64,000 nt of DNA from Amphiura filiformis. Taxonomy: Eukaryota > Echinodermata > Ophiuroidea > Amphilepidida > Amphiuridae. Positions 21,401 to 57,015 of the stretch are shown here, in pieces. Where the stretch lies: assembly GCF_039555335.1 (NCBI RefSeq), contig NC_092647.1:10754313-10818312 (forward strand), written 5' to 3'. The translations under genes and the position numbers were made by a program. Each line of letters starts with the position of its first letter. The first letter of the stretch is position 1. Below the pieces are notes generated by a model. It saw nothing but the letters and a program-made list of their open reading frames with translations, had not been told where the DNA came from and searched no databases.

Positions 21401-24400
21401 AAACATTTACAAAGCTACAATTTCAGAAAACCACATTGATATTCAACAACCAGTTTCAAAGATATGAGCAACTAAAGAATTTCCAAAACAAAAGGAAACA
21501 AAAGGAAATACTTCCTTTGAATGTTTGGCTTTATCTCAAAATCAATATTTCCTAGTTCTGACTGATTTTGCTTGATCGCATCACATTTAAGAAAGTCGTT
21601 TTAGGGGCAGTGCAATAATTATGAGTCTCTCTCTCTCTGCCTGCCAAAATTTCTTTGCCCCCCACAATTTGCACATGCCAAATTTTTGTGATCCCAATTT
21701 GCAAAGCTTTTAAGCTTTTAGACCATTTAAATGATCCAAATAAATGTCGCGAGCGCAGCGAGCAGCAAATTTGCATATTAAAAATATGTCCGTACTGTTT
21801 TCCTAATCCTTTTCAGAGCGTTTTATTTAAAAGGCGCCCATGTCCCCACATATCCCCCCCCCCAATTTTACTCTCCCACCAGGGCTCATAATTATTGGGG
21901 GGGCTATCATTTTCTTCGGGGGGGGGGTCCCAAATATACGGGGGTCATGCATTTATGGAAAGAAAAATAGGGGGGGTCACAAAATGACCACAGACAGATT
22001 TAAAAAAAACTTTGTAGATATGTATCTAATACAGAAAATATACAGTTTTTGTGATTTTTGACCATTCTTGCAGTCTTGTCCATTTTCTTCAAAAATGTCA
22101 CTCGCATCAGCGCCTTTTGAGTAGTATATTTGCATTTTTCTCCCTTTAAACGTAATAAAAGTAACTTTATATGTTTTCTACACATTCAAATGTTTATATT
22201 ATATTTGATATAACTCATACAAAGATTCTTGTCATTTGATTGGTCAATTACAATTGAATATTTTTATTGAAAAAGACTATTGCACTCCGCACCAGTGCAA
22301 TAGTCCATTTTCCATTGCACTGGCGAGCAGCTACCATGGCAACACTGACAGACGCGTGCGTATATCGCGAACGGTGACATTTCACTTCATGAAAATATTC
22401 TTACCATTGTACTCATAAACATTCAATATTTGTATAGCATTTTGCCTCCCCCCAAAAAAACCTGACATTTGATATTTTTGACAATCCGCACCTAGGATTT
22501 TACAAACCTTTCAATTCTTGTTTTGTTTGTTTGTTTTTGTTTGTTTTTTGTTGGTGTTTTTTTTGCTTTACAGCCAGGTAAGTCAGTGCAAAAACAAACA
22601 AAAAAAATTTCGGGTCACCAGATTGGTGGAATTGTCACTAAAATTGGAGTAAATATATTCACCTTAAAAGTTTTATTTTGATTACAAGTAGTGTTTATAT
22701 TGACTTAACATATTATGTAAAACAAGTTGTGTTTATATTGACTTAACACATTGGGGACTGCTCTATAATCCGACGCTTCTACAATCCGAAGGTTCTTTAG
22801 TCCGAAGGTTCGCTAGTCCGAACATGTGTTCATAACATTCGCTAGTCCGAATTTTAAAAGAGGTTTTCTAGTCCGAAAAAAATTGAAAAGAGGTTCTTTA
22901 TTCCGACGGTTCTTTATTTCGAAGGTTCTATAGTCCGAATTTTAAAAACGGTTCTCTAGTCCGAATATGAAAATAGGCTTTATAGTCCGAATTTAAAAGG
23001 GTTCTATAGTCCGAATATAGAAATATGCTCTTTAATCCGAATTTTAAAAAGGGTTCTCTAGTCCGAAATTGCATAACGGTTCTATAGTCCGAAACGGATA
23101 CCGTGTTCTTTAGTCCGAATCAGTAAAAAGGCTCTATATTCCGAATCTTTATAATAGCAGAGTTTATGGGTAAAATGACGCTACTGCTAAAGGGGGCACA
23201 CCACCAAATCACGATGTAACGTGGATGGATTCCGGTAAAAAACAAAATCTTTTAAGGGATGTTTTGGCCTTTCTGTCGACTAAAAGAGAGGCACGTTATA
23301 GCTTAAATAAAAACTTAATTAACTATTCTGTAAACTAATTTGTTTACATGACTAAATTGTTTAAATGACTAAAGCCGCAGCATGTACATGGCGGGATGGC
23401 GTTATGAAAATTTGAACTCGACAATGCTCGAATACACCCTTGTGTATTACTAGTATATAATATTATAAAGGAATGAAAAACAGATAAAAATGAAGAAAAT
23501 ATCACCAGAATAAAGATAAACGTCAATGTACACTACGGAAAATATCCAAAGAAAGCAATCATGTTGAACTTCAGCGGATTTGTATTTAACAATTGATGAT
23601 TTGACACTGAAACAAATGAACCCGTTTACCAATTCGGACTAAAGAACACGGTATCCGTTTCGGATTATAGAACCGTTTTGCAATTTCGGACTAGAGAACC
23701 TTTTTTTCAAATTCGGACTATAGAGCCTATTTTCATATTCGGACTAGAAAACCGTTTTTAAATTTCGGATTAAAGAATCTCTTTTTATATTCGGACTGGG
23801 GAGCTTTTTTTTAAATTCGGACTAAAGAGCCTTCGAAATAAAGAACCGTCGGAATAAAGCACCTTCGTAATAAAAAAAAACCCGTCGGAATAAAGAACCT
23901 TCGGACTAAAGAACCGTCGGAATAAAGAACCGTCGGACTATAAAGGTTCCACCAACACATTATGTAAAACAAGTAGTGTTTATATTGGCTTAACACATTA
24001 TGTAACATTATTTGATATGGGACAGGGTGTGTTTGGGGTGATTTGATTATTTATAGGCCTATTTAAACACAAAATGTCTTTCTTTTCCAATTTTTAAAAG
24101 TCACAGTCTGATTATCTTACAACTTACACTAGGTACAGCAGCCGGCGTTTTCTCACATGCGTCGAGGTTTTCATTACCAGCAGCAGTACTCAAAACAAAG
24201 CCATCCTTTACTAGACTCTCAGAAATGTCATACATAGCTTGTGAGAATCTTATACCAAATGACATCGAAATAATGGCAGGCCGCATTGCGTTCTCAGCTA
24301 TCCATTCCAAAGCTTGATAAAGAATTGTAAATTCATATAGGAAGGATGAGACTCTTGTATATACTCGGGGAGCTAGGGCCACTTTCTGTGCACCCCCACA

Positions 24401-30314: not shown

Positions 30315-30419
30315 AGTAGTAATATAGCTTTTAGAGACATCTACTTCCGGTTCCGGGTCATGAGTTCAAAGGTCAAGCCAGGTCAAAGGTCACGAAACTA
30401 ATTCCGGTTCATGGGTCAA

Positions 30420-30560
30420 AGGTCAACCGGAAGTGATCAAAGGTCAACCGGAAATACCGCCATTTTGAAAAGGTCAACCGGAAATACCGCCATTTTGAAA
30501 AGGTCAACCGGAAATGCCTCCATTTTGAAAGGTCAACCGGAAATGCCGCCATTTTGAATC
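30420..30560. repeat. AAAGGTCAACCGGAAAT repeats in left arm
   Basis: About four units of about 32 bases including ACCGCCATTTTGAA. The mirrored block is at about 34385-34520. Confidence 0.85.
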
Positions 30561-30879
30561 GAGAAAAAATTTCCACAAAAAAATTCCCCAAAAAAAATTT
30601 CCAAAAAATTTCAAAAAAATTTTCAAAAAAAATTTCAAAAAAAAAAATTAGAAAAAAAAATTTAAAAAAAAAATTTTAAAAAAAAAAATTTTAAAAAAAA
30701 AAAATTGAAAAAAAAAAAAAAAAAAAAAATTAAAAAAAAAAAAAAATAAAAAAATCAGAACAATTTGGGAAAAAAAATCATGAGGACGTGGCTAATTGCC
30801 ACAGATGAATATGAATGAGAGAATGTAAATAAGGGACGTTAATATTTAGGGATGTAAATATTTAGGGACGGTGAAAGGA

Positions 30880-31215
30880 GTCAATGAGCAGGAAAATGAG
30901 CAAATGAGCATGGAAATGAGCAAATGAGCAGTGAAATGAGCAAATGAGCATGGAAATGAGCAGATGAGCATTGAAATGAGCAAATGAGCATTGGAATGAG
31001 CAAATGAGCATGGAAATGAGCAAATGAGCGGCGAAATGAGCAAATGAGCATTGGAATGAGCAGGGTAATGAGCAAATGAGCATGGAAATGAGCAAATGAG
31101 CGTGTAAACGAGTAAACGAGCGGTGAAATGAGCAAATGAGCATGTCATCGAGTCAATGAGGGTGTAAATGAGTAAATGATCAGGAAATGAGTCAATGAGC
31201 GGTGAAATGAGCAGG
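30880..31215. repeat. 20-bp minisatellite in left arm
   Basis: GAGCAAATGAGCATGGAAAT-type units in tandem; mirrored at 33655-34005. It yields false ORFs (runs of HLLIS/CSFA residues) on one strand of each arm. Confidence 0.9.
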
Positions 31216-31289
31216 GCAATGCTATACATAGAACCGGTTTAAACCGGTTCTCCTCTCCCCTCCATCACCAACAAATATACAACAAAATG

Positions 31290-32002
31290 CACAAATCCGG
31301 CAAAATGCGTCGATTGCGTAACAAAATGCGTCAAAGCGTAACGAATCGCGTCAAAAATGCGTCAATGCGTCATGAAATGCATCAAAGCGTAACGAATCGC
31401 GTCAAAGCGTAACGAATCGCGTCAAAAATGCGTCGATTACGCGACGAAATGCGTCAAGGGTACATGCCACAAAATAGCTTCCCATAGACTTTACGTGCAA
31501 AATAGGGGTCACGTTTTATGCTATAAGTCGAGTTACGTCTTACTTTGAAATATATATTTGATAACATTTTAATCAGAACAAAATTCTGCATAACATATCT
31601 GAAAATGACACCATATTTTAGGTCTACTTTTTGAGAAAAATAGCGCTATATAAAAGACCCGATTTTCCCGTGTTTACGTCCGACTGCTAACCGCGTTTTG
31701 ACCTCGTGTGTTCATGCGCTCATCATCGTAAACATCACTCAAATTTTCGCGTTTTCTGTTCAAATTAGTAGAGATCACATTCACAAGTTCTAGCAAAACA
31801 CGATTTGCAACACTAAAATTATTAATATTGTACCGATTTTGCACATTTTTTAAGCAAAGTTGGGACTATAGTCGTGATAAACTTTTACCGGAAACCGCTT
31901 CACACGCGGATTTAGTGGCATGCACCCTCAAAGCGTTATAGATTGCGTCAAAATGCGTCAATTGCGTCGTAAATTGCGTCAAAGCGTAACTAATTGCGTC
32001 GA
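31290..32002. repeat. GCGTCAAAGCGTAAC repeats in left arm
   Basis: Two clusters (31300-31460, 31930-32002) of 10-20 base units with GCGTCAA; mirrored at 32790-32950 and 33420-33575. A non-repetitive 450-base block lies between. Confidence 0.8.
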
Positions 32003-32129
32003 GCAAATGAGCGTGAAACGAGTAAACGAGCGGCAAAAGGGAGGTTAGAGGTTTAAAATTTGGGTAATAACGAGTAAAAGAGTCGATTGTATTTTGTTTC
32101 TCTACTTTATTATCGTGATTATTTGCGGG

Positions 32130-32711
32130 TTAATCATCGCCGCCTTCGTCCGTGGCAGACTCATCAACGTCATCATCTTCGTCGTATTGGAACAACCCGT
32201 CAAATTTAGATCGATGTTTGGCCATCGTTCTCTTCACGGTTTTGTCTACCTCGACACCTTTCTCCATTTTCTCCTCGAGATCGTCCGTGATCTCCGTATA
32301 AACGTCTTCGTCTTTGAGACGCGCGTGACTTCGTAGGAACGTGCTGTACTGGTCGAAAAAGTCACGTTTGACGGCCCATACGGTCTTCAGGTAGGCCTTT
32401 TCCCTAGCCATCTCAGGGTTCATGCCGTCTTTGATGTACTTTTCGTATTTTTCCCTCCTCATATCTTCCGTAGCTTCTTTAGCTCCCTGGTACCATTCCA
32501 GATAAGCCTCATTGTCTTCCAGTTCATCGTTGTCTTCGTCCGACACTTCGCGCTCTTCGACCTCAGAGTCTTTATCGTCGGAATCCATATCATCCTCTTC
32601 TTCTTCCTCTGTTTCCTTGGAGTGTACGTGTCGCTCGTGTCTCTCGAGATCGTACTTGCGCGAGAACGTCCTGCCGCACAGGGAGCAAGGGTAAGATTTG
32701 AAGGTATTCAT
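32130..32711 (-). CDS. C2H2 zinc-finger, acidic protein in the foldback loop
   Basis: 193 residues with no break. Residues 7-31 form one C2H2 finger (CSLCGRTFSRKYDLERHERH, then VH: C-x2-C-x12-H-x4-H). Residues 32-70 are almost all Glu, Asp and Ser. The rest is charged and helical (REKYEKYIKDGMNPEMAREK), ending with an acidic tail. It fills the loop between the two TIRs and is the only intact ORF of the element. A DNA- or nucleoprotein-binding role is plausible from the finger. I do not recognise the family, nor can I show that it belongs to known Polinton genes. It may alternatively be a captured host fragment. Confidence 0.7.
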   Translation of the reverse strand: MNTFKSYPCSLCGRTFSRKYDLERHERHVHSKETEEEEEDDMDSDDKDSEVEEREVSDEDNDELEDNEAYLEWYQGAKEATEDMRREKYEKYIKDGMNPEMAREKAYLKTVWAVKRDFFDQYSTFLRSHARLKDEDVYTEITDDLEEKMEKGVEVDKTVKRTMAKHRSKFDGLFQYDEDDDVDESATDEGGDD

Positions 32712-34630
32712 GTTGACTCTTTGAAGGCTCGGATCGAAATGACCGAGAGGTTTAAGCTAACCGGTTTATATCATCTTTTGCGTAACGCATTTCGTTGTGC
32801 AATCGACGCAATTTACGACGCAATTGACGCATTTTTACGCAATCTATAACGCTTTGACGCATTTCGTCGCGTAATCGACGCAATTAGTTACGCTTTGACG
32901 CAATTTACGACGCAATTGACGCATTTTGACGCAATCTATAACGCTTTGAGGGTGCATGCCACTAAATCCGCGTGTGAAGCGGTTTCCGGTAAAAGTTTAT
33001 CACGACTATAGTCCCAACTTTGCTTAAAAATGTGCAAAATCGGTACAATATTAATAATTTTAGTGTTGCAAATCGTGTTTTGCTAGAACTTGTGAATGTG
33101 ATCTCTACTAATTTGAACAGAAAACGCGAAAATTTGAGTGATGTTTACGATGATGAGCGCATGAACACACGAGGTCAAAACGCGGTTAGCAGTCGGACGT
33201 AAACACGGGAAAATCGGGTCTTTTTATATAGCGCTATTTTTCTCAAAAAGTAGACCTAAAATATGGTGTCATTTTCAGATATGTTATGCAGAATTTTGTT
33301 CTGATTAAGATGATATCAAATATATATTTCAAAGTAAGACGTAACTCGACTTATAGCATAAAACGTGACCCCTATTTTGCACGTAAAGTCTATGGGAAGC
33401 TATTTTGTGGCATGTACCCTTGACGCATTTCGTCGCGTAATCGACGCATTTTTGACGCGATTCGTTACGCTTTGACGCGATTCGTTACGCTTTGATGCAT
33501 TTCATGACGCATTGACGCATTTTTGACGCGATTCGTTACGCTTTGACGCATTTTGTTACGCAATCGACGCATTTTGCCGGATTTGTGCATTTTGTTGTAT
33601 ATTTGTTGGTGATGGGAGGGGAGAGGAGAACCGGTTTAAACCGGTTCTATGTATAGCATTGCCCCGCTCATTTCACCGCTCATTGACTCATTTCCCTGAT
33701 CATTTACTCATTTACACCCTCATTGACTCGATGACATGCTCATTTGCTCATTTCACCGCTCGTTTACTCGTTTACACGCTCATTTGCTCATTTCCATGCT
33801 CATTTGCTCATTACCCTGCTCATTCCAATGCTCATTTGCTCATTTCGCCGCTCATTTGCTCATTTCCATGCTCATTTGCTCATTCCAATGCTCATTTGCT
33901 CATTTCAATGCTCATCTGCTCATTTCCATGCTCATTTGCTCATTTCACTGCTCATTTGCTCATTTCCATGCTCATTTGCTCATTTTCCTGCTCATTGACT
34001 CCTTTCACCGTCCCTAAATATTTACATCCCTAAATATTAACGTCCCTTATTTACATTCTCTCATTCATATTCATCTGTGGCAATTAGCCACGTCCTCATG
34101 ATTTTTTTTCCCAAATTGTTCTGATTTTTTTTTTTTTATTTTTTTAATTTTTTTTTTGATAAAAATTAAAAAAAACTTTTTTTTTTTTGAGCACATTTTT
34201 TTTTAAAATTTTTTTTTTTTTTTTTTTTTTTGAAAATTTTTTTTTTAAATTTTTTTGAAATTTTTTTTGAAATTTTTTTTTTTTGAAATTTTTTTTTTTG
34301 AAATTTTTTTTGAAAATTTTTTTGAAATTTTTTTTGGAAATTTTTTTTTGGGGAATTTTTTTGTGGAAATTTTTTCTCGATTCAAAATGGCGGCATTTCC
34401 GGTTGACCTTTCAAAATGGAGGCATTTCCGGTTGACCTTTTCAAAATGGCGGTATTTCCGGTTGACCTTTTCAAAATGGCGGTATTTCCGGTTGACCTTT
34501 GATCACTTCCGGTTGACCTTTGACCCATGAACCGGAATTAGTTTCGTGACCTTTGACCTGGCTTGACCTTTGAACTCATGACCCGGAACCGGAAGTAGAT
34601 GTCTCTAAAAGCTATATTACTACTCACTTC

Positions 34631-38214: not shown

Positions 38215-39205
38215 TATATGCATGTAAATAATCTGGGTGAAAGATTCCAATCTGCGTACACTTCCAATTGGAGTACGGAGACCGCGCTCCAGTTTTTGAA
38301 CCACACATGTCCACATTGACGGTTACTTCTGAGACCAGCGTTCACTTGATAACGGTATCCCGCAAGGCTCGGCCATCGGTCCAGTCATGTTCATCATCAA
38401 TACATCATTTGCCCATTGGTGAAAATATTCATAAAACACGGACTTAGTTACATGCATTTGCGGATAATACGCAAATTTCTCGTTGAATCAGAGAAATCTA
38501 ACGATCACATGAAAGCTCTTACTTGAATCCTGGACTGGATTTGCGTGCACAAGATGAAACTCAACATTAATAAAACAGAATTCTTCATCGCCAGTACTTC
38601 TCAAAGTGTTAGTAAACTTCCGTGATTGGAACTTAAAGTGGGAGGCAGTATCATTACACCATCTGATAATGTTCAAAACTTAGGCACAGCGTTTGACTAT
38701 CGCCTAACATTGACTCCTCACATTAACAGCATCATTCCTTCGTTCAATTACCAGCCAGTAATATTCGACTTTCTATAGCACACAAAACACTTCACACAGT
38801 TGTGCAAGCTTTCGTGATACCACGCCGTGACTCCGTGAATGCTCTCTTCTTTGGAGCAAAATAAAAAGGCCTTGATCGTTTGCAGCCTCTCCGACATAGG
38901 ACATGATAGCCCCACACCATTGATGCATAACTTTCACTGTTTGCCAGTAAGAGATCGAATAAAATTCAAACTCTGTCTGTACATCTTCAAATGTTTTCAT
39001 GAATCTGGTCCTTCATACCTCACTGAATTAATCTCATACTGAACACGCTCATCTTGACCTGTCACAAGATCCTCTATGGATACCAGTCTTCTAAATACAC
39101 ATATTCGGTAAAATGCGCTGGTCCGGCATTATGGAATTGCCTCTAACGAACCATCAGGGAGGCAATCCCGGTGACAACATTCAGCATGTTCAGAAAATTT
39201 CTTAA

Positions 39206-39861
39206 GGGATCTAAAATGAGCGTTTATTGCGTTTCGACAGTATTTTTTGTGGGACGTGAGAGCACCTCGGACCTATCGAATTGCATTCTGAATACGAAGC
39301 ATGTCTTTCTGATATCAAATCATTTTCATTTTTTGAAAATCACAATATAATACAAATTTTATGACAAATTATAAAAATTGATATTTTTCAAATTTTGATA
39401 TATAACAGTCCTCGAAGTAAATTATATAAATCTAATGATATATTCTTAAAGTGTATGTAGCAGGAGGAAAAGCCGACGGTCAATTGAAAATTTTGACCTT
39501 TCATATTGAAGATATAGATTTTTTTCCCAAAAAGACCTAATTTTTTTGGTGTTTTGGGAAAAAATCCATATCTTCAATACGAAAGGTCAAAATTTTCAAT
39601 TGATCGTCGGCATTTCATCCCACCTACATACACGTTAAGTATAAATCATCAGATTTATAAAGTTTACTTCGAGTACTGTTAAATATCAAAAATATCAATT
39701 TTTAATGATTTGCCATAAAATGTGTATTAAATTGCGAATTTCAAAAACCAAAATTATTTGATATCAGAATGACATTCTTCGTATTCAGAATGCAATTCGA
39801 TATGTCTGATGTGCTCTAATGTCCCAAAATAAATACTGTCCAAACGTTCATACCCCAGCCC
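39206..39861. mobile_element. TTAA-flanked palindromic MITE, copy 2
   Basis: TTAA at 39202-39205 and 39862-39865. Same orientation and near-identical sequence to 10437-11096. Confidence 0.88.
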
Positions 39862-40429
39862 TTAAGGCTAATTATTATCCTTTTTGACTTTTGCTTTTGT
39901 TCATTCTTTTGTTTTTGCAGTTTTTCAGTTAGCGCTTTGATCTATTTGAAATAGCGCTTTACGAGCGTGTAAGCTCTTTTATGTGTGAATGTATGTATGT
40001 TGGAGGTAGGGTGTGGGGTGTGTATGTATTGTCTTCAAAATATAACTCAAAATCCTTGCAGAGGGAGTGTAGCTATTAAATAGCATTGTCATTACTTGTA
40101 CTTCACTAATTTCTTGACTAGCCTTGCGCTTAAAAACCAAGGGATCTCAGGATTTTAAATTGTAAAAATCATAAAAATTCAGATTTGGCACCTTTGTTAG
40201 TGTTATAGATGTGCTAACATAGCCGGCTAGTGCGCCGAAAGCCGTGTATCAAATGTTGTGCAAAGTGTATGGACCTTGCAAGTGGCAAATTTCATGTGCA
40301 ACATCGGGTATGATCTGTAATTTTGTCATTGGACGCTTCTGTTTTGAGTCATGTGCAAATTAGCTCATTAGCATAAAAGGTTGTCCAAAGTATATCGACA
40401 TTGGGTTGGGAGTGTTATGCTTGGCTAAG

Positions 40430-41553: not shown

Positions 41554-41557
41554 TTTA

Positions 41558-42208
41558 AGGGATGGGGTATGAACGTTTGGACAGTATTTATTGTGGGACA
41601 TTAGAGCACATCAGACATATCGAATTGCATTCTGAATACGAAGAATGTCCTTCTGATATCAAATAATTTTGATTTTTGAAATTCGCAATGTAATACACAT
41701 TTTATGGCAAATTATTAAAAATTGATATTTCTGATATTTAACAGTACTCGAAGTAAACTTTATAGATCTGATGATTTATACTTAAAGTGTATGTAGATGG
41801 GATGAAAAGCCGACGATCAATTGAAAATTTTGACCTTTTATTGAAGATATGGATTTTTTCCCAAAACACCAAAAAAAAATAGGTCTTTTGGGGAAAAAAT
41901 CCATATCTTCAATATGAAAGGTCAAAATTTTCAATTGATCGTCGGCTTTTCCTCCCAGCTACATACACTTTAAGAATGTATCATTAGATTTATAAAATTT
42001 ACTTCGAGGACTGTTATATATCAAAAATGTGAAAAATATCAAATTTTAATAATTTGTCATAAAATTTGTATTATATCGTGAATTTCAAAAATTATTTGAT
42101 ATCAGAATGACATTCTTCGTATTTAGAATGCAATTCGATATGTCTGATGTGCTCTCATGTCCCACAAAAAATACTGTCGAAACGCTCAAAACGCTCATTC
42201 CAGGTCCC
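41558..42208. mobile_element. TTAA-flanked palindromic MITE, copy 3 (reverse)
   Basis: TTAA at 41554-41557 and 42209-42212. It is inverted relative to copies 1 and 2: the GGGTATGAACGTTTGGACAG end is on the left. Confidence 0.88.
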
Positions 42209-42982
42209 TTAAATATTAAATTTGGGACAGTAGATTCAGTTTAGTTTCAGTTTATATATTTACCATATCAACGCAATGAAAATATATATAATACATAATG
42301 GAAGGATGACCAAAAAAGCTCGAGAAGACTCTGGCCACCCTGAAAAGTAATAACAAAATACAAAAGAGTGCAGAGACAAAGACACCATTTATGTGTAGAC
42401 AAAGCCATGACCTACAAGTACATGGGACAGATATTTGCTACATGTTGGCAACAAAGGCAGATCTATAAATAAACCACACTCCCAGACAGTTGGTCAAGTC
42501 CACGCGGAAGAACGAAACAAGCGTGCAAAAAGGAAAAGCATGAGCAGCATAACATGAGAGCAAATAACACGAAAAGGACAAAAATGTCTGGAAGTGCGGA
42601 CTACAGCTATTAAATATCTTGAATAATAACCAGAGCATAAAATAATCACCAATTAATGATAATTAGACAGTAAATTCGCTTTATACAATAATTTAAATTT
42701 TTTAACTAACAAGGAATAACGAGTAAATGCCTCAATGGCATTCCATAGAATGGAACCCTGTCTTCTGATCGTATTTCTGGCGAGATCAGAGACAAAATTA
42801 TGAGGGAGATTCAGAAGACCTGCTACCCCCCTGCTACCATAATTATGAATTCTATTGACGTTTGTGAAGATTATCATTCATCCAGGTAAAACAATATTAA
42901 TATTGAACTATAATCTAGTCAACTGGACTTACTGTATTTGAGTGGGAAATTTTCACGTCCAATCCTGAACGCATCATCAGCC

Positions 42983-43291
42983 CTACTGATCATCTGGCGG
43001 CAAAAGTTCATTGACCTGTGAAACGGATGTTGTAGTATCACAGGTCACCACCTTTGAGTTCAACCTGAGAGGTATCTTCCTGATCGCTGAACTGTAGGCC
43101 CCGGCCAAGTTGTGACGTAAGCCGCCTCCCCTGTTAAGTGAAGGCTCCTCCCGTTTCACGTAAATCGCTTCTTTGACCCCTCTCTCAAACCATCTGCTTT
43201 CTCTGTCCAAGATTTTAACGTCCTTGTTGTCAAAGGAATGTTTTGTAATGTCCAAATGCGTGTAGACGGCCGAGTCACCGCAACCAGTGCT
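42983..43291 (-). pseudogene. PLE GIY-YIG endonuclease, C-terminal half
   Basis: Encodes STGCGDSAVYTHL, FDNKDVKILDRESRWFERGV, EPSLNRGGGLRHNLAGAYSS and a tail to the stop at 42983. Together with 56563-56797 it makes one frame, QHRRA-STGCGDSAVY, once the 13-kb insert and one GACGAGCC are removed. Confidence 0.85.
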
Positions 43292-43339
43292 GGCTCGTCC
43301 ATTAAGGTGCGGGATTGTAACTATCTAAAATATCCTGAC

Positions 43340-46300
43340 AAATATCCAATTAGCTTCAGCTATTAGGCTATTTAGATATTTAAGATATTTGGATATTATT
43401 AAAGGATATTATGGATAATTTGGATAATAGTTGCACCTACTGATATTTTGGATATTTGGATATTTTAGATAATTTGGATATTATCAAGGATATTATGGAT
43501 ATTTATATATTTCAGATATTTGGATATTTTAGATATTATGGCTAATTAAGATATTTTAGATATTTTGGATATTATTATGGCTAATTAGGATAATTTGGAT
43601 ATTTTGGATATTATTGTGGCTAATTAGGATAATTAGGATATTTCAGATATTAGTATATTTTAGATATTTTGGATATTATTATGGCTATTTTGGATAATTT
43701 TGATATTTTAGATATTTTGCATATTATTAGGGCTATTTAGGATAATTTGGATATTTTGGATATTATTAGGGCTATTTAGGATAATTTGGATATTATTAGG
43801 GCTATTTTGGATAATTTGGATATTTTAGATATTTTGGATATTATTATGGCTAATTAGGATCATTTGGATATTTTTAATATTATTATGGGTCATTAGGATA
43901 ATTTGGATATTTCAGATATTTGGATATTTTAGATAATTTTTATATTATTAGGGCCATTTTGGATAATTTGGATATTTTAGATATTTTGGATATTATTATG
44001 GCTAATTAGGATAATTTGGATATTTCTGATATTTTTCATATTATTATGGGTCTTTAGGATAATTTGGATATTTAAGATATTTGGATATTTTAGATAATTT
44101 GGATATTATTAGGGCTATTTTGGATAATTTGGATATTTTAGATATTTTGGATTTGGTTATTATTAGGGCTATTTTGGATAATTTGGATATTTTGGATATT
44201 ATTAGGGCTAATTAGGATAATTTGGATATTTTTAATATTATTATGGGTCATTAGGATAATTTGGATATTTCAGCTATTTGGATATTTTAGATAATTTTTA
44301 TATTATTAGGGCTATTTTGGATAATTTGGATATTTTGGATATTATTAGGGCTAATTAGGATAATTTGGATATTTTTAATATTATTATGGGTCATTAGGAT
44401 AATTTGGATATTTCAGCTATTTGGATATTTTAGATAATTTTTATATTATTAGGGCTATTTTGGATAATTTGGATATTTTAGATATTTTGGATATTATTAG
44501 GGCTATTTTGGATAATTTGGATATTTTAGATATTTTGGATATTATTATGGCTAATTAGGATAATTTGGATATTTCTGATATTTTTCATATTATTATGGGT
44601 CTTTAGGATAATTTGGATATTTAAGATATTTGGATATTTTAGATAATTTGGATATTATTAGGGCTATTTTGGATAATTTGGATATTTTAGATATTTTGGA
44701 TATTATTATGGCTAATTAGCATAATTGGGATATTTTAAATATTATTATGGGTCATTAGGATAATTTGGATATTTCAGCTATTTGGATATTTTAGATATTT
44801 GGATATTAGGGCTATTTTGGATAATTTGGATATTTTAGATATTTTGGATTTTATTAGGGCTATTTTGGATAATTTGGATATTTTAGATATATTGGATATT
44901 ATTATGGCTAATTAGGATAATTTTGATATTTCTGATATTTTTCATATTATTATGGGTCTTTAGGATAATTTGGATATTTAAGATATTTGGATATTTTAGA
45001 TAATTTGGATATTATTAGGGCTATTTTGGATAATTTGGATATTTTACTTATTTTGGATATTATTAGGGCTATTTTGAATAATTTGGATATTTTAGATATT
45101 TTGGCTATTATTATGGCTAATTAGGATAATTTGGATATTTGTTATATTTTTCATATTATTATGGGTCAATGGATAATTTGGATATTTCAGATATTTGGAT
45201 ATTTTAGATAATTTGGCTATTATTAGGGCTATTTTGGATAATTTGGATATTTTGGATATTATTGTGGCTAATTAGGATAATTTGGATATTTCAGATATTA
45301 GTATATTTTAGATATTTTGGATATTATTATGGCTATTTTGGATAATTGTGATATTTTAGATATTTTGCATATTATATGGGCTATTTAGGATAATTTGGAT
45401 ATTTTGGATATTATTAGGGCTATTTAGGATAATTTGGATATTATTAGGGCTATTTTGGATAATTTGGATATTTTAGATATTTTGGATTTTATTATGGCTA
45501 ATTAGGATAATTTGGATATTTGTTATATTTTTCATATTATTATGGGTCAATGGATAATTTGGATATTTCAGATATTTGGATATTTTAGATAATTTGGCTA
45601 TTATTAGGGCTATTTTGGATAATTTGGATATTTTGGATATTATTGTGGCTAATTAGGATAATTTGGATATTTCAGATATTAGTATATTTTAGATATTTTG
45701 GATATTATTATGGCTATTTTGGATAATTTTGATATTTAAGATATTTTGTATATTATTAGGGCTATTTAGGATAATTTGGATATTTTGGATATTATAGGAT
45801 AATGTGGATATTATTAGGGCTATTTTGGATAATTTGGATATTTTAGATATTTTGGATATTATTATGGCTAATTAGGATAATTTGGATATTTCTGATATTT
45901 TTCATATTATTATGGGTCTTTAGGATAATTTGGATATTTAAGATATTTGGATATTTTAGATAATTTGGACATTATTAGGGCTATTTTGGATAATTTGCAT
46001 ATTTTAGATTTTTTGGATATTTCAGATATTTGGATATTTTAGATAATTTGGCTATTATTAGGGCTATTTTGGATAATTTGGATATTTTGGATATAGGATA
46101 ATTTGGATATTTCTGATATTTTTCATATTATTATGGGTCTTTAGGATAATTTGGATATTTAAGATATTTGGATATTTTAGATAATTTGGATATTATTAGG
46201 TCTATTTTGGATAATTTGGATATTTTAGATAATTTGGATATTATTAGGGCTATTTTGGATAATTTGGATATTTTAGATATTTTGGATATTATTATGGCTA

Positions 46301-49300
46301 ATTAGGATAATTTGGATATTTGTTATATTTTTCATATTATTATGGGTCAATGGATAATTTGGATATTTCAGATATTTGGATATTTTAGATAATTTGGCTA
46401 TTATTAGGGCTATTTTGGATAATTTGGATATTTTGGATATTATTGTGGCTAATTAGGATAATTTGGATATTACAGATATTAGTATATTTTAGATATTTTG
46501 GATATTATTATGGCTATTTTGGATAATTTTGATATTTAAGATATTTTGCATATTATTAGGGCTATTTAGGATAATTTGGATATTTTGGATATTATTAGGG
46601 CTATTTAGGATAATGTGGATATTATTAGGGCTATTTTGGATAATTTGGATATTTTAGATATTTTGGATATTATTATGGCTAATTAGGATAATTTGGATAT
46701 TTCTGATATTTTTCATATTATTATGGGTCTTTAGGATAATTTGGATATTTAAGATAATTTGGATATTATTAGGGCTATTTTGGATAATTTGCATATTTTA
46801 GATCTTTTGGATATTTCAGATATTTGGATATTTTAGATAATTTGGCTATTATTAGGGCTATTTTGGATAATTTGGATATAGGATAATTTGGATATTTCTG
46901 ATATTTTTCATATTATTATGGGTCTTTAGGATAATTTGGATATTTAAGATATTTGGATATTTTAGATTATTTGGATATTATTAGGGCTATTTTGGATAAT
47001 TTGGATATTTTAGATATTTTGGATATTATTAGAGCTATTTTGGATAATTTGGATATTTTAGATATGTTGGATATTATTATGGCTTATTAGGATAATTTGG
47101 ATATTTGTTATATTTTTCATACTATTATGGGTCAATGGATAATTTGGATATTTCAGATATTTGGATATTTTAGATAATTTGGCTATTATTAGGGCTATTT
47201 TGGATAATTTGGATATTTTGGATATTATTGTGGCTATTTTGGATAATTTTGATATTTAAGATATTTTGCATATTATTAGGGCTATTTAGGATAATTTGGA
47301 TATTTTGGATATTATTAGGGCTATTTAGGATAATGTGGATATTATTAGGCTATTTTGGATAATTTGGATATTTTAGATATTTTGGATATTATTATGGCTA
47401 ATTAGGATAATTTGGATATTTGTTATATTTTTCATATCATTATGGGTCAATGGATAATTTGGATATTTCAGATATTTGGATATTTTAGATAATTTGGCTA
47501 TTATTAGGGCTATTTTGGATAATTTGGATATTTTGGATATTATTGTGGCTAATTAGGATAATTTGGATATTTCAGATATTAGTATATTTTAGATATTTTG
47601 GATATTATTATGGCTATTTTGGATAATTTTGATATTTTAGATATGTTGCATATTATTAGGGCTATTTAGGATAATTTGGATATTTTGGATATTATTAGGG
47701 CTATTTAGGATAATTTGGATATTATTAGGGCTATTTTGGATAATTTGGATATTTTAGATATTTTGGATATTATTATGGCTAATTAGGATAATTTGGATAT
47801 TTTTTATATTATTATGGGTCATTAGGATAATTTGGATATTTCAGATATTTGGATATTTTAGATAATTTTTATATTATTAGGGCCATTTTGGATAATTTGG
47901 ATATTTTAGATATTTTGGATATTATTATGGCTAATTAGGATAATTTGGATATTTCTGATATTTTTCATATTATTATGGGTCTTTAGGATAATTTGGATAT
48001 TTCAGATATTTGGATATTTTAGACAATTTGGATATTATTAGGGCTATTTTGGATAATTTGGATATTTTGGATATTATTAGGGCTAATTAGGATAATTTGG
48101 ATATTTTTAATATTATTATGGGTCATTAGGATAATTAGGATATTTCAGCTATTTGGATATTTTAGACAATTTGGATATTATTAGGGCTATTTTGGATAAT
48201 TTGGATATTTTGGATATTATTAGGGCTAATTAGGATAATTTGGATATTTTTAATGTTATTATGGGTCATTAGGATAATTTGGATATTTCAGCTATTTGGA
48301 TATTTTAGATAATTTTTATATTATTAGGGCTATTTTGGATAATTTGGATATTTTGGATATTATTAGGGCTAATTAGGATAATTTGGATATTTTTAATATT
48401 ATTATGGGTCATTAGGATAATTTGGATATTTCAGCTATTTGGATATTTTAGATAATTTTTATATTATTAGGGCTATTTTGGATAATTTGGATATTTTAGA
48501 TATTTTGGATATTATTAGGGCTATTTTGGATATTTTAGATATTTTGGATATTATTATGGCTAATTAGGATAATTTGGATATTTCTGATATTTTTTTTATT
48601 ATTATGGGTCTTTAGGATAATTTGGATATTTAAGATATTTGGATATTTTAGATAATTTGGATATTATTAGGGCTATTTTGGATAATTTGGATATTTTAGA
48701 TATTTTGGATATTATTATGGCTAATTAGGATAATTGGGATATTTTTAATATTATTATGGGTCATTAGGATAATTTGGATATTTCAGCTATTTGGATATTT
48801 TAGATATTTTTTATATTATTAGGGCTATTTTGGATAATTTGGATATTTTAGATATTTTGGATTTTATTAGGGCTATTTTGGATAATTTGGATATTTTAGA
48901 TATATTGGATATTATTATGGCTAATTAGGATAATTTGGATATTTCTGATATTTTTCATATTATTATGGGTCTTTAGGATAATTTGGATATTTAAGATATT
49001 TGGATATTTTAGATAATTTGGATATTATTAGGGCTATTTTGGATAATTTGGATATTTTACTTATTTTGGATATTATTAGGGCTATTTTGAATAATTTGGA
49101 TATTTTAGATATTTTGGCTATTATTATGGCTAATTAGGATAATTTGGATATTTGTTATATTTTTCATATTATTATGGGTCAATGGATAATTTGGATATTT
49201 CAGATATTTGGATATTTTAGATAATTTGGCTATTATTAGGGCTATTTTGGATAATTTGGATATTTTGGATATTATTGTGGCTAATTAGGATAATTTGGAT

Positions 49301-52300
49301 ATTTCAGATATTAGTATATTTTAGATATTTTGGATATTATTATGGCTATTTTGGATAATTGTGATATTTTAGATATTTTGCATATTATATGGGCTATTTA
49401 GGATAATTTGGATATTTTGGATATTATTGGATATTTAGGATAATTTGGATATTATTAGGGCTATTTTGGATAATTTGGATATTTTAGATATTTTGGATTT
49501 TATTATGGCTAATTAGGATAATTTGGATATTTGTTATATTTTTCATATTATTATGGGTCAATGGATAATTTGGATATTTCAGATATTTGGATATTTTAGA
49601 TAATTTGGCTATTATTAGGGCTATTTTGGATAATTTGGATATTTTGGATATTATTGTGGCTAATTAGGATAATTTGGATATTTCAGATATTAGTATATTT
49701 TAGATATTTTGGATATTATTATGGCTATTTTGGATAATTTTGATATTTAAGATATTTTGCATATTATTAGGGCTATTTAGGATAATTTGGATATTTTGGA
49801 TATTATTAGGGCTATTTAGGATAATGTGGATATTATTAGGGCTATTTTGGATAATTTGGATATTTTAGATATTTTGGATATTATTATGGCTAATTAGGAT
49901 AAGATATTTCTGATATTTTTCATATTATTATGGGTCTTTAGGATAATTTGGATATTTAAGATATTTGGATATTTTAGATAATTTGGACATTATTAGGGCT
50001 ATTTTGGATAATTTGCATATTTTAGATCTTTTGGATATTTCAGATATTTGGATATTTTAGATAATTTGGCTATTATTAGGGCTATTTTGGATAATTTGGA
50101 TATTTTGGATATAGGATAATTTGGATATTTCTGATATTTTTCATATTATTATTATGGGTCTTTAGGATAATTTGGATATTTAAGATATTTGGATATTTTA
50201 GATAATTTGGATATTATTAGGGCTATTTTGGATAATTTGGATATTTTAGATAATTTGGATATTATTAGGGCTATTTTGGATAATTTGGATATTTTAGATA
50301 TTTTGGATATTATTATGGCTAATTAGGATAATTTGGATATTTGTTATATTTTTCATATTATTATGGGTCAATGGATAATTTGGATATTTCAGATATTTGG
50401 ATATTTTAGATAATTTGGCTATTATTAGGGCTATTTTGGATAATTTGGATATTTTGGATATTATTGTGGCTAATTAGGATAATTTGGATATTTCAGATAT
50501 TAGTATATTTTAGATATTTTGGATATTATTATGGCTATTTTGGATAATTTTGATATTTAAGATATTTTGCATATTATTAGGGCTATTTAGGATAATTTGG
50601 ATATTTTGGATATTATTAGGGCTATTTAGGATAATGTGGATATTATTAGGGCTATTTTGGATAATTTGGATATTTTAGATATTTTGGATATTATTATGGC
50701 TAATTAGGATAATTTGGATATTTCTGATATTTTTCATATTATTATGGGTCTTTAGGATAATTTGGATATTTAAGATATTTGGATATTTTAGATAATTTGG
50801 ATATTATTAGGGCTATTTTGGATAATTTGCATATTTTAGATCTTTTGGATATTTCAGATATTTGGATATTTTAGATAATTTGGCTATTATTAGGGCTATT
50901 TTGGATAATTTGGATATAGGATAATTTGGATATTTCTGATATTTTTCATATTATTATGGGTCTTTAGGATAATTTGGATATTTAAGATATTTGGATATTT
51001 TAGATTATTTGGATATTATTAGGGCTATTTTGGATAATTTGGATATTTTAGATATTTTGGATATTATTAGGGCTATTTTGGATAATTTGGATATTTTAGA
51101 TATTTTGGATATTATTATGGCTTATTAGGATAATTTGGATATTTGTTATATTTTTCATACTATTATGGGTCAATGGATAATTTGGATATTTCAGATATTT
51201 GGATATTTTAGATAATTTGGCTATTATTAGGGCTATTTTGGATAATTTGGATATTTTGGATATTATTGTGGCTATTTTGGATAATTTTGATATTTAAGAT
51301 ATTTTGCATATTATTAGGGCTATTTAGGATAATTTGGATATTTTGGATATTATTAGGGCTATTTAGGATAATGTGGATATTATTAGGGCTATTTTGGATA
51401 ATTTGGATATTTTAGATATTTTGGATATTATTATGGCTAATTAGGATAATTTGGATATTTGTTATATTTTTCATATCATTATGGGTCAATGGATAATTTG
51501 GATATTTCAGATATTTGGATATTTTAGATAATTTGGCTATTATTAGGGCTATTTTGGATAATTTGGATATTTTGGATATTATTGTGGCTAATTAGAATAA
51601 TTTGGATATTTCAGATATTAGTATATTTTAGATATTTTGGATATTATTATGGCTATTTTGGATAATTTTGATATTTAAGATATTTTGCATATTATTAGGG
51701 CTATTTAGGATAATTTGGATATTTTGGATATTATTAGGGCTATTTAGGATAAGGGCTATTTTGGATAATTTGGATATTTTAGATATTTTGGATATTATTA
51801 TGGCTAATTAGGATAATTTGGATATTTGTTATATTTTTCATATCATTATGGGTCAATGGATAATTTGGATATTTCAGATATTTGGATATTTTAGATAATT
51901 TGGCTATTATTATTAGGGCTATTTTGGATAATTTGGATATTTTGGATATTATTGTGGCTAATTAGGATAATTTGGATATTTCAGATATTAGTATATTTTA
52001 GATATTTTGGATATTATTATGGCTATTTTGGATAATTTTGATATTTTAGATATGTTGCATATTATTAGGGCTATTTAGGATAATTTGGATATTTTGGATA
52101 TTATTAGGGCTATTTAGGATAATTTGGATATTATTAGGGCTATTTTGGATAATTTGGATATTTTAGATATTTTGGATATCATTATGGCTAATTAGGATAA
52201 TTTGGATGTTTATAATATTATTATGGGTCATTAGGATAATTTGGATATTTCAGCTATTTGGATATTTTAGATAATTTTGATATTATTAGGGCTATTTTGG

Positions 52301-53165
52301 ATAATTTGGATATTTTAGATATTTTGGATATTATTATGGCTAATTAGGATAATTTGGATATTTCTGATATTTTCATATTATTATGGGTCTTTAGGATAAT
52401 TTGGATATTTAAGATATTTGGATATTTTAGATAATTTGGATATTATTAGGGCTATTTTGGATAATTTGCATATTTTAGATCTTTTGGATATTATTAGGGC
52501 TATTTTGCATAATTTGGATATTTTAGATATTTTGGCTATTATTATGGCTAATTAGGATAATTTGGATATTTGTTATATTTTTCATATTATTATGGGTCAA
52601 TGGATAATTTGGATATTTCAGATATTTGGATATTTTAGATAATTTGGCTATTATTAGGGCTATTTTGGATAATTTGGATATTTTGGATATAGGATAATTT
52701 GGATATTTCTGATATTTTCATATTATTATGGGTCTTTAGGATAATTTGGATATTTAAGATATTTGGATATTTTAGATAATTTGGATATTATTAGGGCTAT
52801 TTTGGATAATTTGGATATTTTAGATATTTTGGATATTATTAGGGCTATTTTGGATAATTTGGATATTTTAGATATTTTGGATATTATTATGGCTAATTAG
52901 GATAATTTGGATATTTCTGATATTTTTCATATTATTATGGGTCAATGGATAATTTGGATATTTCAGATATTTGGATATTTTAGATAATTTGGCTATTATT
53001 AGGGCTATTTTGGATAATTTGGATATTTTGGATATTATTGTGGCTAATTAGGATAATTTGGATATTTCAGATATTAGTATATTTTAGATATTTTGGATAT
53101 TATTATGGCTATTTTGGATAATTTTGATATTTTAGATATTTTGCATATTATTAGGGCTATTTAGT
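43340..53165. repeat. GATATT/GGATAATTTGGATATTTT satellite, 9.8 kb
   Basis: Made of short variants such as GGATAATTTGGATATTTTA, GATATTATTAGGGCTATTTT and ATTATGGCTAATTAGGATAA, arranged in longer blocks. The whole pattern is repeated at about 4.01 kb: the variant ATTTTACTTATTTTGG is at 45041 and 49053, and ATTTGGACATTATTAGG at 45963 and 49981. The plus strand has very little C. Confidence 0.92.
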
Positions 53166-54845
53166 TATAAAGTTTCCTAAAGCATGTATACTTGGAAAAG
53201 ACTTTTAAAGAACGACGCATATTGTATTGTACATGTCAGTGTATTTATGGTGATGATAATAATATTGTACATTAAAGTAAACTTTATGCATATGCAACTT
53301 TAATTATCATCATCACCATAAATACACTGACATGTAAAATACAATATGCGTCGTTCTTTAAAAGTCTTTTCCAACTATACATGCTTTAGGAAACTTTATG
53401 CATATGCAACTTTAATGTACAATATAGTATGCGTCGTTCTTTCAAAGTATTTTCCAACTATATCCATCGTTTAGGATTACACTATTATGAACTAGAAGAC
53501 AACATGCATGATTCTTAAATGGTTCTCAGGCGCTAGGGCATATTAATTTCACATCTTTTATGAACTAACACAACATGCATGATGTATGCGTCGTTCTTTA
53601 AAAGTCTTTTCAAACTTTATCCATCCTTTTGGATTATGCAACTTTAATGTATACTATAATCCGGCTATGAACTAACACAACATGCATCATGTATGCGTCA
53701 CAATGTAAAATACAATATGCGTCGTTCTTAAAAAGTATTTTCCAACTATACATGCTTTAGGAAACTTTATGCATATGCAACTTTAATGTACAATATAGTA
53801 TGCGTCGTTCTTTAAAAGTCTTTTCCAACTATATCCATCGTTTTGGACAACATGCATGATGTAGGCTGGCCATAATATTGTTCAATATGCAATTTCACAA
53901 TAAAATACTATTATGAAATATAAGGCAACATGTATGTCATACACATAGCTCAACTATTATGCAATAACACATAATATGTCAATTATTATGATGGATGACA
54001 ATATACATTATGAAGGCATTGCAACATTTTTTTGAATATTCATCAACTATTATGCATAAGTGTATCTTTAATGCAGTGTTTTTGCACATCTCATGTATTT
54101 TATTTACATCCAAAACTCTTGCATGCGTCATTCTTTAAATGCTTTTCCAACTATATCCATCGTTTAGGATTATACTATTATGAAATCGAAGACACCATGC
54201 ATGATCCATAGTAGGCTGTTCATTAAATGGTTCAAAGGCATATTAATTTCACATGTTTTGTGAACGAACACAACATGCATCATGTATGCGTCCTTTTTTA
54301 TAATTCTTTACCTACTATATCCATCGTGTAGGATTATCAACTAAAACACAACATGCATGATATCCATCACTTACTAAGAAAAAAATTTCAATTAAAATTT
54401 TATAAGTTCCTAATATACAATTCTATTACCTCCACGACCCATTATTCAAAATCGCGCACTGTGATTCGTTAAAACGCGTCACGTGAGAGCCCATTATTCT
54501 GCAATAATGGGTCAAGCGCCGTAACACATTCTACGCACAGCATTACGCTTGGTTACGCGTGCAATATTTCCGCGATAAGCGCTGTCACTTACGCGTACTC
54601 GCTCCACCTTGAAGTAAACAACTTAAAATATTAAAAAAAAAAATTATATTTTCTCTTTAATCGCACTATTTTCTGGTAATAGAATAGAAATAAAGGGTGC
54701 AGCATTATCCTTTACACGCAAATAATGTGTCCTCGGCAGTAAAACGTTTAAATAATGGGTTCGGCTGCGCCTCACCCATTATTTACGTTTTACTGCCTCG
54801 GACACATTATTTGGGTGTAAAGGATAATGCATTACCCTTTATTTC
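53166..54845. repeat. Hairpin-rich centre of the 13-kb element
   Basis: 53168-53397 is an inverted repeat with arms of about 110 bases (AAAGTTTCCTAAAGCATGTA at one end, complement at the other). ATGCGTCGTTCTTTAAAAGT then recurs with changes up to 54300. 54685-54845 is a second hairpin with about 75-base arms (ATAAAGGGTGCAGCATTATC ... complement). Confidence 0.8.
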
Positions 54846-56380
54846 TTAAATATAGCTGATATAGCGGATATTTTAGCTAATATCCAAATTAGCAGATATT
54901 TTGGCTAATTTAGATAATAGCTAAATAGCTGCTAATATCTTAATATCCATCACTTACTAAGTCAAAAAATTTCAATAAAAATTGTATAACTTCCTAATAT
55001 ACAAATATCTGATATAGCGGATATTGTAGCTAATATCCAAATTAGCAGATATTTTGGCTAATTTAGATAATAGCTAAATAGCCGCTAATATCTTAATATC
55101 CATCACTTACTAAGTCAAAAAATTTCATTTTTTTATAAGTTTGTAATATACAAATATCTGATATAGCGGATATTTTAGCTAATATCAAAATTATCAGATA
55201 TTTTGGCTAATTTAGATAATAGCTAAATAGCCGATAATATCTTAATATCCATCACTTACTACGTCAAAAACATTTTCAATAAAATTTTTTATAAGTTCCT
55301 AATATACAAATATCTGATATAGCGGATATTTTAGCTAATATCCAAATTATCAGATATTTTGGCTAATTTAGATAATAGCTAAATAGCTGCTAATATCTTA
55401 ATATCCATCACTTACTAAGAAAAAAAAGTTCAATTACAATTTTATAAGTTCCTAATATACAAATATCTGATATAGCGGATATTTTAGCTAATATCCAAAT
55501 TAGCAGATATTTCGGCTAATTTAGATAATAGCTAAATAGCTGATAATATCTTAATATCCATCACTTACTAATTCTAAAAATTTCAATAAAAATTTTATAA
55601 GTTCCTAATATTATACAAATATCTGATATAGCGGATATTGTAGCTAATATCCAAATTAGCAGATATTTTGCCTAATTTAGATAATAGCTAAATAGCCGCT
55701 AATATCTTAATATCCATCACTTACTAAGTCAAAAAATTTCATATTTTTTTTATAAGTTTGTAATATACAAATATCTGATATAGCGGATATTTTAGCTAAT
55801 ATCAAAATTATCAGATATTTTGGCTAATTTACATAATAGCTAAATAGCCGATAATATCTTAATATCCATCACTTACTACGTCAAAAAATTTTCAATAAAA
55901 TTTTTATAAGTTCCTAATATACAAATATCTGATATAGCGGATATTTTAGCTAATATCCAAATTATCAGATATTTTGGCTAATTTAGATAATAGCTAAATA
56001 GCTGCTAATATCTTAATATCCATCACTTACTAAGAAAAAAAAGTTCAATTACAATTTTATAAGTTCCTAATATACAAATATCTGATATAGCGGATATTTT
56101 AGCTAATATCCAAATTAGCAGATATTTTGGCTAATTTAGATAATAGCTAAATAGCTGATAATATCTTAATATCCATCACTTGCTAAGTCAAAAAATTTCA
56201 ATAAAAATTTTATAAGTTCCTAATATACAAATATCTGATATAGCGGATATTTTAGCTAATATCCAAATTAGCAGATATTTTGGCTAATTTAGATAATAGC
56301 TAAATAGCCGATAATATCTTAATATCCATCACTTACTAAGTAAAAAATTTCACAAAAAATTTACTAAGTCCCTAACATAC
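54846..56380. repeat. 153-bp tandem array, about ten units
   Basis: TCCATCACTTACTAAG occurs at 54946, 55099, 55248, 55404 and onward, 149-156 bases apart. Each unit includes ATATCTGATATAGCGGATAT and GCTAATTTAGATAATAGCTA. The A/T stretches after CTAAG vary in length. Confidence 0.9.
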
Positions 56381-56562
56381 AAATATTAGATATTTTAGAT
56401 AATATGAGATATTATGATCAACAAAAATAGCCAAATAGCCAAACACAACCTTGTAACTATCTAAAATAGCAGATTTTTCACCCTATACTACAACACACAA
56501 ATTATCCAAATTATCTATAAAAAAAAGAAAAAGTTACAATCCCGCACCTAACTCGGCTCGTC

Positions 56563-56797
56563 TATGCTGGTACATGCGTTTAGCAAGTGTTTGTTTAGTC
56601 TCCCCAATATAGAGTTTAGCAAGTGTTTGTTTAGTCTCCCCAATATAAAGCTCCTCGCATCCACTGTCTTGACACTGAATCGCGTAGACGATGTTGCTTT
56701 GCTTGTCTTTAGGTTGTTTATCTTTGGGGTGGACTAGCGCTTGGCGTAAAGTATTCTTGGGTTTGAAAGATACCGGTACCCCTTTGTCCGGTACCGG
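56563..56797 (-). pseudogene. PLE GIY-YIG endonuclease, N-terminal half
   Basis: Encodes VPVSFKPKNTLRQALVHPKD, NIVYAIQCQDSGCEELYIGE and TLAKRMYQHRRA: the GIY-YIG core with GET. A 36-base in-frame duplication (56579-56650) repeats LYIGETKQTLAK. It ends at the target site of the 13-kb element. Confidence 0.82.
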
Positions 56798-57015
56798 CTT
56801 ACGTCACAACTTGGCCGGGGCCTACAGTTCAGCGATCAGGAAGATACCTCTCAGGTTGAACTCAAAGGTGATACTACAACATCCGTTTCACAGGTCAATG
56901 AACTTTTGCCGCCAGATGATCAGTAGGGCTGATGATGCGTTCAGGATTGGACGTGAAAATTTCCCACTCAAAAACAGTAAGTCCAGTTGACTAGATTATA
57001 GTTCAATATTAATAT
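56797..57015 (+). pseudogene. Inverted copy of the PLE 3' end
   Basis: Plus-strand copy of 42885-43115: GLRHNLAGAYSSAIRKIPLR, then AFRIGRENFPLK and the start of the 3' tail. Head to head with the main PLE body. Confidence 0.82.

Follow-up and report, generated by a model that had tools for sequence, protein, structure and literature searches.

A long satellite array between the ends of a non-autonomous transposon that interrupts a presumed Penelope-like element

How do satellites get to new chromosomal sites? This is a long-standing question. In oysters, satellite-like repeats are reportedly borne by Helentrons, and the TU elements of sea urchins, which are echinoderms, are foldback transposons of modular build that contain tandem repeats and make 8-bp duplications. 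Closer systems show that arrays inside transposons are already established. In Tetris, from Drosophila virilis, two TIR segments enclose long TIR-220 arrays, whose repeats expand inside the element to kilobase-size arrays of up to 66 reported copies; the authors' placement of the element in Mutator rests partly on duplications of 8–10 bp (PMC4079207). The longest D. willistoni copy of Galileo (P superfamily) is 9,021 bp long and has TIR tandem repeats and identical target site duplications (TSDs) (PMC4168063), and the Galileo transposase binds TIR tandem repeats through its THAP domain (PMC3688188). By analogy, this binding suggests how selection might come to favour repeats of this sort.

Here we describe, in a window of 64,000 nucleotides (the whole stretch of DNA analysed, with positions counted from its first base), an array enclosed, with base-exact limits, by the ends of a transposon. 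It sits in an apparently young host element that serves as a rough date, so that the order of array growth and insertion can be argued from sequence. The features of the locus are as follows:

42894..43299, minus strand: left part of the interrupted host element, with the later endonuclease frame and one inverted arm (42894–43124)
43292..43299, no strand: left copy of the target site duplication GGCTCGTC
43300..56554, no strand: the insert, a non-autonomous TIR transposon of 13,255 bp, 86% tandem array
43305..43322, plus strand: left TIR AGGTGCGGGATTGTAACT, with CATTA before it at 43300–43304
43315..43332, plus strand: 18-bp subterminal motif TTGTAACTATCTAAAATA, repeated in direct orientation at 56451–56468
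43361..53165, no strand: array A, 9,805 bp, GATAWTTTG-type units of 9 bp in longer composites (limits by self-comparison)
43877..51900, no strand: block of about 4 kb within array A, twice in tandem, 99.44% identical
53166..54359, no strand: middle segment, made up of diverged modules in direct and inverted orientation, array A words not in excess
54360..54420, plus strand: partial array B monomer (about 86%) on the left side of the nested insertion
54424..54851, no strand: probable nested insertion in array B, including a 161-bp hairpin (limits by eye)
54852..56415, no strand: array B, 1,564 bp, about ten units of 153 bp
56532..56549, minus strand: right TIR, 18/18 identical to the left TIR, then AACTC at 56550–56554
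56555..56562, no strand: right copy of the target site duplication GGCTCGTC
56563..57015, minus strand: right part of the host element, with the earlier endonuclease frame and the second inverted arm (56795–57015)

Did the two ends of the insert arrive together? The perfect 8-bp duplication described in the first-pass annotation of this DNA is there: GGCTCGTC occurs twice on the plus strand of the window, at 43292–43299 and 56555–56562, and not at all on the minus strand. That annotation had also counted 17 matching terminal bases. The inverted repeat stands, as an exact 18-bp pair of AGGTGCGGGATTGTAACT; the count and the terminal position do not, because the pair is inset by 5 bp at both insert ends. 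The outermost five bases (CATTA on the left; GAGTT, the reverse complement of AACTC, on the right) differ at three of five positions. Within the window AGGTGCGGGATTGTAACT is present as this pair alone, and its equal 5-bp offset at both ends is consistent with genuine element ends. A scan of the window for inverted pairs (at least 13 bp, at most 20 kb apart) found a direct repeat of 7–10 bp at a symmetric offset of 0–8 bp around 125 of 2574: 115 of these are the satellite's own GATATTT words, 9 fall in the window's other arrays, palindromes, or inverted repeats, and 1 is the insert. Among 198,729 random position pairs, 559 (0.28%) have 8 bp in direct repeat around them when symmetric offsets of 0–8 are allowed, a figure that covers the duplication only and does not require the 18-bp TIR too.

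The sequence around the insert bears on the same question. With the insert and one copy of the duplication removed, 180 codons run stop-free over the junction on the minus strand, and the joined translation scores 32.1 bits against Pfam GIY-YIG, versus 26.3 for the right piece alone and no match for the left piece; the earlier statement that removal restores the interrupted frame is borne out. Two stops lie farther upstream in the joined frame, in the arm. We take the interrupted host to be Penelope-like on the strength of its GIY-YIG domain and its pair of inverted arms. There is no ORF of at least 120 aa from 37,619 to the window end, so no reverse transcriptase is seen beside the host, and a search of the left host flank against phages gave no match. 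The arms are identical at 220 of 221 positions (plus one 10-bp gap), which points to a young insertion unless the arms were homogenised. The host endonuclease adjoining the insertion also carries a 36-bp tandem duplication (56578–56647) that is in frame (12 aa).

The ends, the duplication, and the open frame of the empty site are direct observations. Together, the perfect duplication, the matched TIRs, and the open host frame indicate that both ends came in one cut-and-paste-type insertion; the duplication itself is silent on what stood between them. Matched inverted termini, a target duplication, and a clean empty site are all found, as in a cut-and-paste TIR DNA transposon. A single, non-autonomous insertion had been proposed, and the proposal is upheld by GGCTCGTC, the TIRs, and the coding content: transposase is absent, and the longest stop-free stretch of the insert is 67 codons. 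Helitrons and Helentrons are expected to have neither target duplication nor TIRs, and a Helitron or Helentron with a satellite core does not fit the 8-bp duplication and TIRs of the insert. Could the locus be an assembly artefact, with satellite collapsed or misjoined into the host element? Mis-assembly of two haplotypes could account for the 4-kb copies in tandem, which are 99.44% identical, but a misjoin would not produce TIRs that match, an exact 8-bp duplication, and a frame that stays open over the junction, and we give this explanation very little credence.

To which superfamily might the insert belong? With hAT elements, to which it was likened earlier, the insert shares an 8-bp target duplication and a left end that begins with CA. 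hAT elements have the duplication motif nTnnnnAn and the terminal sequence YARNG. GGCTCGTC agrees with the former at 0 of 2 fixed positions, the ends CATTA and GAGTT do not fit the latter, and the insert carries no transposase; the length of the duplication is not specific either, and the hAT assignment is not supported. Elements of the P superfamily have a 14-bp palindromic target and a THAP-type site, TNNGGGNW. The target of the insert matches this palindrome weakly (at 7 of 14 positions in one orientation and 8 of 14 in the other), and a match at 8/14 is reached by 1551 of 50,731 window 14-mers outside the insert (3.1%) and by 30/845 in the host remnant. The target site itself is palindromic at 9/20 symmetric pairs, and 7.3% of the background is as good. 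Each TIR has one TNNGGGNW site, a number equalled by 35 and 103 of 200 shuffles, and array B has 0. A field of THAP sites in the array, as a mark of the P superfamily, was rejected, array A having 91 TNNGGGNW sites versus a shuffle mean of 127. P elements also make 8-bp duplications (PMC1562414).

Searches beyond the window added little to this picture. A 17-bp core of the TIR occurs at one locus in viral contigs, where only those 17 bases match the window, and we took the match as chance; the remaining matches between that contig and the window are short (best E 0.005) and lie elsewhere. Patterns of 20 bp from the left end and 37 bp from array A had 0 exact matches in prokaryotic and viral genome contigs, and patterns of 28 bp from array A and 30 bp from array B had 0 matches in viral contigs, absences that say little in either case. 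Rfam gave no match to the window. Neither the 15-base TIR core nor the start of the left end in the context of transposon inverted repeats was found in the literature searched.

What lies between the ends? Satellite, hairpins, and a 153-bp array had been listed, and the content is as claimed. Arrays A and B together make up 85.8% of the insert and are confined to it, with no such array outside the insert in the tandem-repeat listing of the window; this confinement, too, is observed directly. Array A has tandem repeat periods (TRF) of 9, 39, 48, 65, and 143, and its units include GATAATTTG and GATATTTTA, each of 9 bp; 97% of it is covered by 9-mers that occur at least 20 times. It is strongly strand-asymmetric, with 15–19 C and 91–100 G per 500 bp. 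One unit of array B, when folded, exceeds 200 shuffles of that unit in stability (z −3.6). The middle segment contains a palindrome of 233 bp (88%; 53167–53399). The 161-bp hairpin of the nested insertion (54686–54846) has an MFE of −71.2 kcal/mol (z −19.7), and the nested insertion is perhaps another MITE. Because a piece of array B lies beyond it, the nested insertion probably came later than array B.

Other repeats and elements occupy the rest of the window. A 4.3-kb element at 30315–34624 has TIRs of about 1.7 kb (95.8% identical), is rich in tandem repeats, ends in AG...CT, and is flanked by the 6-bp direct duplication CACTTC; we presume from its ends and duplication that it resembles Polinton/Maverick elements. 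It encodes a C2H2 zinc-finger ORF of 208 aa (32130–32756, minus strand), which 7 of 108 candidates match, the only named match being from the brittle star Amphiura filiformis; an echinoderm source is possible. A reverse transcriptase search that scored 7992 candidates gave 6585 hits, and the 120 of them that were listed offered no informative name. Satellite-like arrays at 12554–16177 (116-bp units, then 11/23/45-bp and 144-bp units), in which both strands carry TTTGATACACT-type words, may belong to a further element that bears an array. At 22762–23937, two facing arrays of TCTATAGTCCGAA-type repeats form a foldback-like inverted pair of at most 86% identity. A MITE-like repeat of about 670 bp is present in three copies (10420–11100, 39202–39865, and 41555–42223; 92.5–96.4% identical), which also match one another in reverse (84–86%).

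Is the satellite related to the element that encloses it? We compared the ends with the 255 array A 9-mers that occur at least five times. Read as the reverse complement, the left end (61 bp) has 10 array A 9-mers and the right end (139 bp) has 24, counts that 0 of 1000 dinucleotide shuffles equalled at either end; the forward strands of both ends have 0. There was no excess on either strand of the two 1-kb flanks or the middle segment, or on one strand of an AT-rich control stretch. Words of array B gave weaker signals, and these at the left end only, their counts being equalled by 11 and 42 of 1000 shuffles at the left end and by 65 and 202 of 1000 at the right end. Outside the insert, 169 positions also match array A 9-mers of at least 20 copies, which is no surprise for words so short and AT-rich, and single words are thus not diagnostic. 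That array A and the ends have satellite words in common is plain from the sequence. Because the ends share them beyond shuffles and the flanks do not, the subterminal sequence of the element itself is the probable source of array A, much as Tetris is the proposed source of TIR-220 (PMC4079207). Array A might instead be a foreign genomic satellite captured by the transposon, with no ancestral link to the ends; capture of a pre-existing tandem repeat has been proposed for the Xenopus MITE miDNA4 (as summarised in PMC12628747). The array A 9-mers in the ends, far beyond shuffles and unlike the flanks, make capture very unlikely here. One array B monomer, aligned with array A, scored only a little higher than its shuffles: 43 in reverse and 51 forward (maxima of 100 shuffles, 38 and 37, respectively). 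A foldback element with satellite TIRs was rejected: the exact TIR is only 18 bp, and arrays A and B share words but are not inverted copies.

Did the array grow before or after the insertion? Old and recent copies are intermixed in array A. The two copies of the 4-kb block are identical at 3936/3958 aligned bases, with 14 gaps. At offsets other than about 4 kb, array A has 77 self-alignments of at least 1 kb, with identities of 77.8–89.0% counting gaps and with mismatches alone in 5.5–13.5% of columns. The best 300-bp windows are 98.7–100% identical at each of 25 listed offsets, so much of array A is the product of recent copying. One rival reading is that a small MITE with few subterminal repeats landed and essentially all of the array expanded later in place. 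The difference between the 4-kb copies (0.56%) is of the same order as the single difference in 221 between the arms, as growth on that time scale would leave, and the doubling may therefore have followed the landing; near-identical 300-bp windows at many further offsets fit in-place expansion as well, and Tetris alleles that are one repeat apart offer a precedent (PMC4079207). The arms are 220/221 alike, but the array self-alignments differ by 5–13% (mismatch), which suggests that part of the array is older than the insertion. This dating would fail if the arms had undergone gene conversion or if the array changed at a higher rate.

Simulated growth (8 replicates for each setting, without indels, ranges compared separately for each diversity measure) bears on how much of the array was present. 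If 0.5% divergence has built up since the insertion, the three diversity values of the real array are all attained only from seeds of 3,000 and 5,800 bp. At 2.5%, a bound that is our own estimate from the arms' 1 difference in 221, seeds of 500–3,000 bp reach all three and the 5,800-bp seed overshoots all three, so arrival of the whole array is not favoured at that clock. Seeds of 200 bp touch two of the three values at 2.5% but miss the third, and at 0.5% they miss 3/3. In an earlier simulation (2.5%, 5 replicates, a different mutation schedule, two measures), 300-bp seeds stayed below both values in 5/5 replicates, 3,000-bp seeds came out at or above the data, and 1,000-bp seeds fitted one measure in 4/5 replicates and the other in 1/5. 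With the shortfalls of the 200- and 300-bp seeds against it, in-place expansion of essentially the whole array seems unlikely to us. Windows at 95% identity leave 1.9–3.8 kb of array A nonredundant, but simulated small seeds likewise leave about 1–2 kb; we therefore rejected an argument for whole-array arrival from redundancy alone and lowered the lower bound. Taken together, the simulations and self-alignments suggest that at this one locus part of array A (about 0.5–6 kb, depending on the clock) predates the insertion. The first-pass annotation had posed a choice between a whole array that moved and a small MITE that expanded; the strict either/or is not retained, and a mixture of the two, with an array part-grown at insertion and extended later, seems to fit better.

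We consider it probable that this locus holds a non-autonomous TIR transposon whose array arose from its own subterminal repeats, was part-grown at insertion, and grew later as well. A transposase supplied in trans would have moved the element by cut and paste into a young, presumably Penelope-like host, cutting the target with an 8-bp stagger. The satellite would have grown from the element's subterminal repeats, possibly transposase-binding sites, and when the element landed its array would already have measured some 0.5 kb or more, perhaps several kilobases. Growth would then have continued, with unequal exchange as the probable mechanism; the most recent large step in evidence, the tandem doubling of the 4-kb block, could have come before or after landing. 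A bolder idea, which we regard as rather unlikely, is that a long satellite array is itself what moves in this transposon family: copies would move arrays of several kilobases, seed satellite at new loci, and expand after each landing, and the array would not be inert stuffing but a multiplied set of sites that the transposase binds. Should there be sister copies with kilobase-size arrays, transposition would carry ready-made satellite directly to new places.

How does the insert compare with the described systems? Like the insert, miDNA4 of Xenopus is a MITE with an internal satellite, one of variable copy number, but it is assigned to Tc1/mariner (as summarised in PMC12628747). The long Galileo copy resembles the insert in that it has no transposase, is flanked by identical TSDs, and contains both tandem repeats (about 140 bp each) and fragments of other elements; Galileo differs in having TIRs of more than 4 kb, tandem repeats that are a minority of the copy, and a TSD that is usually 7 bp (consensus GTATTAC), in contrast to 8 bp in the insert (PMC4168063). 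Tetris is likewise a non-coding TIR element with duplications of 8–10 bp and internal AT-rich tandem repeats (PMC4079207), but its repeats are of about 220 bp and lie in long TIRs, whereas the insert has an exact TIR of 18 bp, a unit based on 9 bp, and mostly one array. Given the TIR-220 arrays of Tetris and the 9,021-bp Galileo copy, the earlier statement that no element of such kind and size had been described was too strong. Two features are less usual among the systems compared: a single array accounts for the greater part of a 13-kb element whose TIRs are short, and the host is young enough to date it.
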